From Nitrospira sp. (GTDB lineage Bacteria; Nitrospirota; Nitrospiria; Nitrospirales; Nitrospiraceae), in NCBI GenBank assembly GCA_005116895.1, contig SWDO01000021.1, forward strand, positions 76,386 through 140,385: 64,000 nucleotides of DNA, read 5' to 3'. Below, piece after piece: positions 5,143-9,489 of this stretch. Every line of letters starts with the position of its first letter. Position 1 is the first letter of the stretch. The translations under genes and the position numbers were made by a program. Below the pieces are notes generated by a model. The model saw only the letters and a program-made list of their open reading frames with translations, did not search any database and had not been told where the DNA came from.

Positions 5143-6078
5143 CTACGCAAATAATGAACTCACCGACTCATCTTCATGGATCCGTCTGATGGCTTCGCCT
5201 AAAAGCGGCGCCACCGACAACTGATGCAACTTCGGACAGGCCAACTCTTTTCCTCGCAGCGGAATCGTGTTGGTCACTACCACTTGGGACAGACAGGACA
5301 TCTGTAACCGTTCCAGTGCCGGCCCGGACAGCACCGCGTGCGTGCAGGCCGTGATCACCTCTCGAGCACCATGATCAAGACAAGCCTGAGCCCCTTGAAC
5401 AATGGTGCCTGCCGTATCGATCATGTCATCGAGGAGCAAGACGCTCTTCCCTTGCACATCTCCGATGATGTTCATGATTTGCGCTTGATTCGGACCTTCA
5501 CGTCGCTTGTCGATGATCGCCAGATTCGCCTGAAGGCGTTTGGCAAACGCCCTGGCCCGCTCCACGCCCCCAGCATCGGGCGAGACGACGACCAGATCCG
5601 CGATTTTCTTCTTCACAATGTAGTCCAGCAACACCGGAAGGGCGTACAAGTGATCGACTGGCACGTTAAAAAATCCCTGGATCTGCCCAGCATGAAGATC
5701 CATTGAGAGCACACGATCCGCGCCGGCAGTCGTAATCAAATCGGCAACGAGCTTCGCCGTGATCGGAACTCGTGGTTGGTCCTTGCGGTCCTGACGAGCA
5801 TATCCAAAATAAGGCACAACGGCAGTAATACGATTGGCCGACGAACGTTTCAACGCGTCGATGATGATCAACAACTCCATCAAGGAGTCGTTGACCGGTT
5901 GACAACAGGACTGCACAACGAACACGTCGGCGCCACGCACATTTTCGTCGATCTTGACCCGAATCTCTCCATCACTGAACGACGAAACTGTCGCTTCACC
6001 GAGCAGCCATGAACAAATGCCCAATGCAATTCTGAAAATGGCTCTATTCATGGGCCTTTCAAGAACTGGAACACGCAC
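5143..6078 (-). CDS. prs: ribose-phosphate pyrophosphokinase; N-terminus atypical
   Basis: [82 protein letters not shown]; but residues before [13 protein letters not shown] lack the usual KIFSGN-type start. Confidence 0.88.
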
Positions 6079-6093
6079 TATTTGAGGCTCTGC

Positions 6094-6318
6094 TCAGTAG
6101 GAGAGATTGCCATCTGACGTTTCCACTACCAGATGAAAGTGGTTATCCATCAGGCGATAGGCATGGAGCAGGCGATCAAACCGGGAAACGACGCGTGACA
6201 GCACCGCGGGAAACTGCTGTCGGTCCTCGTCATCCAGTAAAATGTTCTGCCGAGCCTTGCCCCTGGCCGTGACGTGATAGAACTCCTCAGGGAATTCAAT
6301 GCGAAGCGGTCAAGCCAA
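6094..6318 (-). pseudogene. 5' fragment of a REP-associated tyrosine transposase (RAYT / IS200-like Y1 family)
   Basis: Manual minus-strand translation from TTG at 6318: (M)A*PLRIEFPEEFYHVTARGKARQNILLDDEDRQQFPAVLSRVVSRFDRLLHAYRLMDNHFHLVVETSDGNLSY*. TGA at codon 3; the reading frame ends just after the HFH motif. Confidence 0.88.
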
Positions 6319-6368: not shown

Positions 6369-7346
6369 TTGCGTTCATGTGTGTCACTTTTTTATTTTAA
6401 GGTGGGCAGGCGGCTAAACAGGAGCTATCATGAGAAGTCGCGCACTGGATTTCGGCTTCGAATTCGAGGAAGGTCACGTTGGGTGATACGGACAATACCA
6501 AGAACTCTGGCCTTGCTCAGTGTCATCCTCCCCGCATCGGCATGGCTGTTATTCGGCCACGTACGGGTGGAAGCTGCCAACCTAGAAACCGGGCTCCTGT
6601 GCAGCCAGTGCGAAGAGACCGATCGCTTCGTCCGATTGCAAGGTGCAGCGGTAGAGCCACGCATGGGAACCGCTCGACCGTTCACGCATCCGTTCGTCCT
6701 AAGTCCTGAAGAGTGGGTGTCCCTTCTCAGAGAGCTGCATGTCCAACGTCAAAGCCAAGGACTCCTGTTACGGGACCCACCCGGACCGATTATCCCGGCC
6801 TTCACGGCAGAAGAAATCGGTTATCTCAGCGCAACATTAAGCAAAGCCTTTGCCCAAGCAAAGCCCAATGAATGGGTGGTATTTGGTCTCAGTGGCCCGA
6901 CCACGCATGGGATGGCTAAAATTACGACAGGGGGATGGTTCGTGGAAGGATCTTCGCTCCACCTCATCTTGGCCAACTATCGGAAGGCTGTGACGATGCG
7001 GAGCACCCGTGAATCACTCTGGGAGCATCCGCTCCGCCCAGACGAGGGGGCTGACTACGATCTGGTTGCAGGGACTCATCATACAATCGTGCGCGACCCC
7101 ACTGTCAGTTCGAGTCTGTTCTCGTCCCCACCCGCCGAACTGGCTATTTCCTATCAGGCAGCCCTGTTGGGACAGACGATTGATGTTTCGACACTCAAAG
7201 CACCGGCCACACTCTCACCGAGGGTAGCCCCTGCCTCCATGTCGATCGAAGACCGACTCCGCGCACTGAAGCAGTTGCATGCCCAAGGGTTGATCACGGA
7301 AGAAGAATACCGCGCCAAAAAGCAGCAGATACTGGATCGGTTCTAA
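6369..7346 (+). CDS. uncharacterised exported protein with C-terminal SHOCT-like domain
   Basis: Hydrophobic segment TLALLSVILPASAWLLF near N-terminus; C-terminus SIEDRLRALKQLHAQGLITEEEYRAKKQQILDRF is SHOCT-like; start codon uncertain. Confidence 0.7.
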   Translation: MRSCVSLFYFKVGRRLNRSYHEKSRTGFRLRIRGRSRWVIRTIPRTLALLSVILPASAWLLFGHVRVEAANLETGLLCSQCEETDRFVRLQGAAVEPRMGTARPFTHPFVLSPEEWVSLLRELHVQRQSQGLLLRDPPGPIIPAFTAEEIGYLSATLSKAFAQAKPNEWVVFGLSGPTTHGMAKITTGGWFVEGSSLHLILANYRKAVTMRSTRESLWEHPLRPDEGADYDLVAGTHHTIVRDPTVSSSLFSSPPAELAISYQAALLGQTIDVSTLKAPATLSPRVAPASMSIEDRLRALKQLHAQGLITEEEYRAKKQQILDRF

Positions 7347-7478
7347 GCCATCGTAGACGTCCCGGCAAAGAGATCTAGAAACACACAACCCCTTTCAGTA
7401 AATTTAATGAGTTGGGGGCAGATCTTGTTCCGTGCGTCAACTTCCCTCTTCGACCCGATGGGCTACCTTGGTGGGTGC

Positions 7479-7597
7479 CTAGCCCGTCGCCATGGCCGTT
7501 TTCAACGATCGGACAAACTCGGCGACCTTCCCCACCATCCCGGGATCCTGTTGTTTCCACACAGACCTTGTCCCGATCTGCACAGCTCCAGCATTTA
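7479..7597 (-). pseudogene. diverged 3'-end fragment of trpA
   Basis: Minus-strand reading [24 protein letters not shown] is nearly identical to the C-terminus of trpA at 8686 ([24 protein letters not shown]); ungapped nucleotide match including the stop codon; upstream part (GAVQIGTRSVWK) more diverged. Confidence 0.85.
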
Positions 7598-8011
7598 GAT
7601 CAGCCCAGCCATGGCGGAACGGAACGCCCGTAAATCTTCGAGTCGAGTCGTGATGACGTCATACACCTGTCCATAGTCGATCTTCCAATACACGTGAACG
7701 AGCAAATTTCTGAAGCGCGCCATCTGCTGCAGGCGGCTGGAAAGATCCGTGGGGATGAGTCCTGCCTGTTCCAACGTGGCGAAGCAACCTGCATATTCTT
7801 CAGGCACTTGATGCAGTCGTTTCGCCGACACATGAAAGCACAAGGCCAACGCGGCCTCAATCGCGATCAGTAGTCGATAACAGGCCACATCACGGGTGTC
7901 TTGATTAGAAAGGAATGTCTCGCGAGACAGACGACCGATCTCTTCGAGCCGTCTCAACGATGTATCGATTTCAACGCAACGTGCCCGGATGAGGTCCGGA
8001 TTCAGGCTCAT
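7595..8011 (-). CDS. HepT-like HEPN-domain toxin (DUF86)
   Basis: 138 aa; FRNLLVHVYWKID matches the RX4HXY HEPN motif; directly follows a nucleotidyltransferase gene with overlapping ends. Confidence 0.88.
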   Translation of the reverse strand: MSLNPDLIRARCVEIDTSLRRLEEIGRLSRETFLSNQDTRDVACYRLLIAIEAALALCFHVSAKRLHQVPEEYAGCFATLEQAGLIPTDLSSRLQQMARFRNLLVHVYWKIDYGQVYDVITTRLEDLRAFRSAMAGLI

Positions 8012-8427
8012 GCGGCGAAGGCGTCCTTCGTGCCGTTGCAGAGGAATGGGGCAAGGTCAAGGTAGCGGCGGGCAACATCTTCCAGCATATCGGTCAAAAA
8101 TGTTTCGTCTCGACACAGTAACAGCCTCCCTCGCAGCACATGGTAGAGGAACGGCAGCGGCGCCTCATTGAGCACCCGAATATCAACCGGAAATCCCACA
8201 GCGGCTGAGAGCGTTACTAAAAGAGCATCCATCATGTTCATCTGCTGTGCAACCATCGGAACATCAAGATAAACCCCAACATCCACGTCATGAACCCTAT
8301 CGGACTCAAGCACCGACCCATACACATACGCAAAGCGCAGCCCCGATACCTTCGCCAATTCAACACGGAGCTTCGCCAGCACATCTTCTCGCTGCTCTGG
8401 ACGAATGGTATAGAGGGCTGTCTTCAT
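8008..8427 (-). CDS. MntA-like nucleotidyltransferase antitoxin
   Basis: YGSVLESDRVHDVDVGVYLD matches the GS-X10-DXD minimal nucleotidyltransferase signature; overlaps the HEPN gene by 4 bp. Confidence 0.88.
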   Translation of the reverse strand: MKTALYTIRPEQREDVLAKLRVELAKVSGLRFAYVYGSVLESDRVHDVDVGVYLDVPMVAQQMNMMDALLVTLSAAVGFPVDIRVLNEAPLPFLYHVLRGRLLLCRDETFLTDMLEDVARRYLDLAPFLCNGTKDAFAA

Positions 8428-8685
8428 GATGTCCCTGACTCCACCCAGTGCGCACCCTTCATTGGCGCTATCTTACACCGTCACTATCATGAGGACAAGA
8501 AACCCTGATCAGCATGGAGGAAACCAGCATGTCAGGGAAGGACTCGCCTCCGGTCGCGGTTCTGTCAGAGCTATGACTTATAGTGGGGTTGAATGAAGAC
8601 AAGCATCGGTCGCTAAATAAACGCGCATACGCATGCGACGAGATATCACGACCTTCAGCCAATCATGCAGTGTGTAGCCACACCA

Positions 8686-9489
8686 CTAGCCTGTGGCCAT
8701 GGCTGATTTCAGTGATCGGACAAACTCGGCGACGTTCCCGATCATCTTGGGATCTTGCTGGTGGGACGCAATACGTTTCACGATAGCGCTACCGACAATC
8801 ACCCCATCCGCCACCTTCGACACCCGCGCCGCATCCTCCGGCGTCGCCACTCCGAACCCGACGGCGACTGGAGCGGTGGAGACTTTCCGGAGTTTTTTGA
8901 CATTGTCTTGGACGTCGCCCACGTTGCTCAACTTCGACCCGGTAATGCCAGTCAGCGAAACGTAGTAGACAAATCCATGCGACTCTCTCGCCACAAGTTT
9001 TCGCCGGCTGGGTGTGCTGGTCGGCGCCAACAGGAAAATGAGCGGCAGTCCGGCTGCATCCGCCGGGCCTTTGAGCGGCCCCGCTTCATCCGGCGGCATA
9101 TCGGGGACAATCAACCCATCCACTCCCGCGGTTGATGCAGCCTTGCAAAACTGATCACAGCCCATGGCGTGGATGGAGTTGTAGTACAACATCAACACGA
9201 TGGGAATGTTCGTCCGCTTCCTGAGCGAGGTCACTGAAGCCAGGATTTTCCGCAGTGTTGTGCCGCTCTTCAAAGCCCGCTCAGCGGCCTGCTGAATGAC
9301 CGGCCCATCGGCAATCGGATCGGAGAAGGGCACGCCCAATTCGATGACGTCAGCGCCTGCCTGCTCTAGGGCCACGACCAACTGTTCTGTTTCAGCCAAT
9401 CCAGGATCCCCGGCCATAAGGTAGGCAATGAGCGCTTTCTCCTTCTTATCACGCAATCTCTGAAACGTGGTTTCCAGCCGTCGGCTCAT
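8686..9489 (-). CDS. trpA: tryptophan synthase alpha subunit
   Basis: [31 protein letters not shown], TrpA-specific motifs. Confidence 0.96.

Follow-up and report, generated by a model that had tools for sequence, protein, structure and literature searches.

In a Nitrospira genome, a toxin-antitoxin (TA) pair lies directly behind trpA, between the working 3′ end of the gene and a short relic, which its flanking sequence marks as the displaced resident 3′ end. The window analysed was 64,000 nt long (C14:76386-140385 of a 35-contig bin; genomes, contigs and loci are given as G, C and L numbers). The working 3′ end is partly foreign, and the two ends diverged as alleles. The same layout recurs at several genes and with several TA families, with a bias toward 3′ ends and direct orientation. 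As the cause we lean toward a recurrent process in which the 3′ part of a donor gene recombines in with the TA genes behind it, pushing the resident end downstream. This would be homology-facilitated illegitimate recombination (HFIR), proposed for the effector-immunity arrays of Vibrio cholerae (PMC5361080), or a close variant.

The trpA gene is the last of the trp operon (Table 1). The nearest genome, Nitrospira sp. CG24B (the sister genome), has a 97% identical trpA. The best direct repeat of the region (7479-7577 and 8686-8784, 99 nt, 76%) stood far above the others. True homology covers 7479-7553, where 75 nt, stop codon included, are 82.7% identical to the trpA end (blastn E=4e-17; nhmmer with a trpA 3′-end model of the genus, E=8e-13). 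The first-pass annotation had run this direct repeat from 7479 to 7560. It holds up to 7553, and the two terminal peptides match the letters it quoted, but 7554-7560 read as the tail of the TA cassette. At the junction this tail is cut at the relic, with ~2 bp shared (by eye); a similar stretch continues to motif M in L060 and L034 (by eye). The proximal 77 nt of the cassette leader are kept at 78-80% in L035, L060 and L088. Only the mntA-like and hepT genes lie between the trpA end and the relic; profile searches showed no other gene and thus no integrase, as first annotated. A match to the trpA 3′ end on the opposite strand was found at none of the loci searched (nhmmer).

Table 1 Features at the trpA locus, in window coordinates.
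Feature	Position	Strand	Basis or remark
trpA, main working copy	8686..9489	-	PF00290 E=7e-91; segment identities; max-chi2
Repeated 3′ end, main copy (last 24 codons + stop)	8686..8760	-	
Cassette leader, upstream of mntA	8428..8657	-	~230 nt, 78% to G055 (L037)
mntA-like antitoxin gene (nucleotidyltransferase, GSX8DVD)	8008..8427	-	PF18765, NF047752
hepT toxin gene (HEPN RNase, RNLLVHVY = RX4HXY)	7595..8011	-	PF01934, NF047751, motif
TA cassette tail, shortened at relic	7554..7594	-	read by eye
Relic: resident trpA 3′ end, displaced, stop codon included	7479..7553	-	
Native post-trpA tail with motif M	7416..7478	-	motif M, TTGACGCACGGAACAAGATCTGCCC, at 7416-7440
SHOCT-domain ORF; the array's second cargo unit	6369..7346	+	PF09851
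REP-associated (Y1) transposase (RAYT) gene fragment, residues 1-73	6100..6318	-	tblastn

The toxin was recognized as HepT by PF01934 (E=1e-29, 103 bits) and NF047751 (109 bits, cutoff 60), and its motif has the RX4HXY form defined for HepT (PMC7641770). Its partner matched PF18765 (E=8e-11, 42.4 bits, cutoff 26.9). As in the type VII HepT/MntA system (PMC7641770), a hepT gene with RX4HXY adjoins a nucleotidyltransferase gene and the reading frames overlap. The antitoxin motif differs, however, being GSX8DXD (GSVLESDRVHDVD) instead of GSX10DXD, and the NF047752 score (47.7 bits) is below the cutoff of 60. On these two grounds the partner is called MntA-like only, and the pair is filed, by its sequence, as HepT with an MntA-like partner. 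Most likely the pair is a conventional one, with an RNase toxin that nucleotidylation silences.

The native tail was found on the relic. Motif M lies 38-39 nt after the relic stop, and the same tail follows the only trpA end at a similar distance in L036, L037, L038, L040, L053 and L058; in L058, another short trpA fragment lies 1.4 kb beyond. Relic and tail together gave their best matches with L040, L037 and L036. The sequence behind the working end differs from this tail. Relatives that have no relic share this post-trpA sequence and motif M, so the relic is, as judged from these comparisons, the resident trpA end. The main trpA changes parentage toward its 3′ end (max-chi2 p=0.0022, permutation, 63 informative sites): the gene body resembles G017, G005 and G055, and the last 104 nt resemble G010/G001. 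The breakpoint fitted best at gene nt 453-516, possibly as late as nt 726, from where foreign sites are densest. This points to a working end that is partly foreign, and the earlier proposal that a replacement end came in and displaced the original is borne out.

Motif M (TTGACGCACARAACAAGATCTGACC) was considered as a general recombination site and rejected. It belongs to the native trpA tail, and at ≤5 substitutions it was absent from 400 kb samples of G024, G053 and G087. Basal relatives have a convergent lipoprotein gene (C0) ~20-100 nt after the trpA stop, followed by fadL-like, lolD, lolC and lysS genes (names by inspection). G055 had two full trpA copies (L037 C1 and L038 C3), ~91% identical to that of the window. 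One was followed by mntA and a truncated hepT, the other by a RAYT and cydAB-like genes, in native synteny.

Direct orientation and adjacency would also fit a local duplication (long target-site or tandem), the resident gene end being copied on insertion or in some unrelated event. A local copy would decay mostly by nonsynonymous changes. In 29 relic/main alignments, not all of them independent, we counted 201 synonymous versus 158 nonsynonymous codon differences, where 26% synonymous were expected (pooled p=6e-33). Single pairs were decisive by themselves, with 13:1 in L056 (2e-7), 26:12 in L034 (2e-7), 31:18 in L052 (2e-7) and 5:1 in L059 (0.002). For the window, the ratio was ~6:4 over the homologous 24 codons (by hand), and 7:10 when computed with eight flanking non-homologous codons. 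The synonymous excess indicates that relic and main ends diverged as functional alleles in different lineages and are not local copies. With the tails also differing, the native one being on the relic, we consider a local duplication very improbable.

TA cassettes were more alike between species than the adjacent trpA (79-81% versus 69% for L072), and the BrnTA cassettes of L052 and L064 shared 90% identity versus ~76% for trpA. Some genomes have a close HepT relative at trpA, and in other species close relatives (78-88%) stand at different loci. For RSF15_CG24_B, the sister genome used here, an r/m of ~28 and near panmixia were reported, with most neighbours below 2 (PMC8751384). A phage or plasmid vehicle was rejected: HepT had no match in phages and one match, of 32%, in plasmids.

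Copies of the trpA 3′ end alone were found in many genomes of the genus (99 relatives searched), all downstream and direct. Their cargo was mostly TA genes other than HepT/MntA, of the BrnT, TacA/GNAT and HigA-like types. We detected BrnT in G041 (PF04365), a weak CopG/BrnA-like match in G042, an XRE antitoxin in G012, TacA + GNAT in G003, an IS5-like transposase in G031 (by eye), and decayed genes in G016 and G051. The scanned end-relic intervals, a non-exhaustive set, held TA genes, RAYT, an IS5-like transposase and varied ORFs; an integrase was found in none. Relic starts differed by cassette type, lying about -383, -280, -230, -132, -115, -102, -75 and -60 nt from the trpA end. A single integrase would give one crossover point, so the integrase reading is unsupported, and the att-type site suggested in the first-pass annotation does not fit these starts. 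Nor is a minimal or decayed element made of this pair supported, judged by the refuting conditions that the first-pass annotation had set. The pair stands behind trpA without a relic in genomes G005, G018 and G023 (directly so at loci L035, L060 and L088), relics with other cargo occur at L034, L046, L051, L052, L062 and L066, and other genes show the same layout.

One such gene carries a second MntA/HepT site. There the pair is found between the 3′ end of a convergent methyltransferase (MT) gene and its relic (69 nt, 93%, in L212). A radical-SAM assignment of this gene was discarded, Pfam giving a methyltransferase domain. Of 59 genomes, 27 had C-terminal-only copies of MT, 42 in total by manual count of the search table; no genome had an N-terminal-only copy, contig-edge truncations aside. 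For trpB, the mid-operon control, 0 partial copies were found. Among 866 ORFs of the fetched loci, 42 copies of 3′ ends lay downstream and direct, versus 6 copies of 5′ ends upstream; 2 were on the opposite strand. As this set was partly chosen for trpA and HepT, the 42:6 ratio is illustrative, and the comparison of MT with trpB is cleaner.

Between MT relics we found nucleotidyltransferase pairs, XRE/Gp49 (RelE-like), HigA and a PIN toxin. Relics of C0 bracket a PIN toxin with a small partner in L056, and a nucleotidyltransferase-like pair without a Pfam match in L059. Two further cases came from the complete genome G024, in 400 kb sampled without selection. There, a 58-nt 3′ relic of zwf lies behind two small ORFs, HEPN-like by eye and without a Pfam or NCBIfam match, and two relics of a 171-aa gene (orf171) separate a nucleotidyltransferase cassette and a MazE-like/PIN cassette. 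The unbiased sample comprised 400 kb from each of three genomes; gene-end relics were absent from the 400 kb of G053 and from the 400 kb of a genome from another genus. Sequential arrays were found in G004, G011, G052 and G006, at orf171 of G024, and in the sister genome.

The MT relic starts clustered near -68, -115/-120 and -131 nt, and the start at -68 recurred after several different cassettes. Tyrosine-integrase islands in the 3′ ends of protein genes supply a replacement 3′ end and displace the original. If an integrase that is missing from the locus, or acts in trans, inserted DNA site-specifically into gene 3′ ends and left attL/attR-like ends, this would explain the replacement-end layout and why different cassettes share favoured MT junctions at -68 and ~-115. 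Here, however, no integrase was seen in the scanned intervals, the trpA junctions range from -60 to -383 without a fixed crossover, at least four unrelated genes are targeted, and the units are ~1 kb long. The repeats in the window share 83% identity, and nowhere do more than 20 nt in a row match. Such integration is therefore improbable.

The MT arrays varied in order by single cassettes: nucleotidyltransferase-XRE/RelE-HigA in G004, nucleotidyltransferase-HigA in G057 and XRE/RelE-HigA in G006. Deletion or movement of units by recombination between relics would produce such differences. The same cassette was followed by the same relic boundary, HigA by -131 in four genomes and XRE/RelE by -115 to -120 in three. 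These arrays, and the usual single TA per interval, would suit an integrase-free cassette array, with TA genes plus the following gene-end copy as the unit and the gene end acting like attC or a homology site. Homologous recombination between adjacent copies would release a unit as a circle, which in another cell would enter the end of the same gene. However, simple deletion between repeats explains the order variation equally well, circles were not seen, 60-130 nt of homology at 75-95% identity is a poor RecA substrate, and the same cassette family is also found behind different genes. We consider this unlikely, but less so than site-specific integration.

The sister genome had the same trpA-pair-relic structure, at 97-99% identity. 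Its hepT (L101:7480-7893) is out of frame through a one-base insertion, which may reflect either loss of the toxin or an error in sequencing. A second, decayed trpA relic was found there (L101:9490-9563, E=3e-4), after the SHOCT ORF and the RAYT fragment, and the two relics start at an almost identical point. Because this second relic lies beyond the SHOCT ORF, the locus is an array with a more decayed relic further out. A near-identical N-terminal sequence of the SHOCT ORF is found between RAYT copies in L040. The RAYT fragment of the window was 73% identical to a RAYT of L062 (tblastn, E=3e-29), the L062 protein matching PF01797.

On the window contig, prs (5143-6078) is without its native first ~28 codons and is joined to trpA-array sequence at 6003/6004. 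Another contig of the same genome, C3, ends in the second trpA relic of the array and holds the lipoprotein gene C0. Given the missing prs start, and the continuation of the array into the second relic in the sister genome and at the end of C3, C14 is doubtful at 6003/6004, where it may be rearranged or chimeric. Most genomes compared are metagenome bins, which together with this suspect join would speak for an assembly artefact. The same structure is present in the independent assembly of the sister genome, though, and relics occur also in the one-contig G024 and the two-contig G058, so that an artefact is scarcely credible.

In the donor-end process toward which we lean, a fragment of a relative's DNA would carry the 3′ part of a gene with a TA module behind it, and would recombine homologously inside the recipient's copy of that gene. 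The other end of the fragment would join non-homologously, in or near the recipient's 3′ end. The gene would stay whole with a donor 3′ end and the TA module behind it, its own 3′ end and tail being displaced downstream as a relic. Repeated events would build arrays of the form gene - TA - relic - TA - relic, presumably with the newest unit nearest the gene, and TA addiction may aid retention. We found a homologous anchor with foreign sequence on the cargo side, a resident remnant downstream, and sequential arrays. Such an anchor, with foreign sequence beyond it and a resident remnant, is the product expected of HFIR. Against HFIR, the MT relic starts and the two trpA relic starts of the sister genome cluster, where free illegitimate joining would scatter more. 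The units are compact, usually with one TA, whereas random donor fragments would vary more, and HFIR was rare where measured (PMC5361080). Neither an intermediate nor an excision product was observed, and the breakpoint in the window is loosely placed (nt 453-726 of trpA). GC-rich microhomology, cassette-plus-relic exchange or an unseen recombinase could each cause the clustering, and the recurrence of MT junctions may reflect a site-specific or cassette-like process.

The T6SS arrays of V. cholerae and the orphan 3′ ends of Rhs/CDI systems are alike in that a toxin module anchors by homology and displaces the resident 3′ part or partner, leaving arrays of remnants (PMC5361080). There the anchored gene is the weapon itself, whereas here the anchors are housekeeping genes (trpA, methyltransferase, lipoprotein, zwf), the cargo is intracellular TA, and the gene remains whole, its end being the donor's. 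Chromosomal integrons likewise line up small units in order, with TA modules abundant among them. Here, in contrast, the repeats are the neighbouring gene's own 3′ end, arrays stand at several genes per genome, and no integron integrase was noticed near them. A precedent for TA modules bracketed by host-gene ends was not found in the literature searched. Tentatively, the loci may form a so far unrecognised mobile gene array, in which copies of the host gene's 3′ end serve as the "recombination sites" of TA cassettes. At several housekeeping genes in each genome, units would then be gained, shuffled and lost through the cell's general recombination, with no recombinase dedicated to them.

It is an old question by what route small TA modules that lack a transposase come to occupy new places in the chromosome, and these observations bear on it. 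The scar apparently left by each arrival comprises donor end, resident end and junction; at several loci and in many species, its sequence can tell of donors, order, age and junction chemistry. TA spread in these nitrifiers would also be tied to ordinary recombination at the ends of housekeeping genes, and duplicated gene ends around small inserts need not imply an integrase.

Other repeats were also observed. RAYT 3′ ends were duplicated in L034 (5827-9551), L038 (1476-5190) and L040 (10176-12553), bracketing cydAB-like genes or the SHOCT ORF of the window. L075, L076, L078 and L083, from four related genomes, share at ~8.8-11.1 kb a gene whose terminal ~106 nt recur 8 nt past the stop codon. 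In G024, L240 (C1 ~263189-267500) contained a direct repeat of at least 1.7 kb with 100% identity, a recent duplication, and L233 (C1 137554-139484) had ~73-nt repeats in tandem around the start of a 567-nt ORF.
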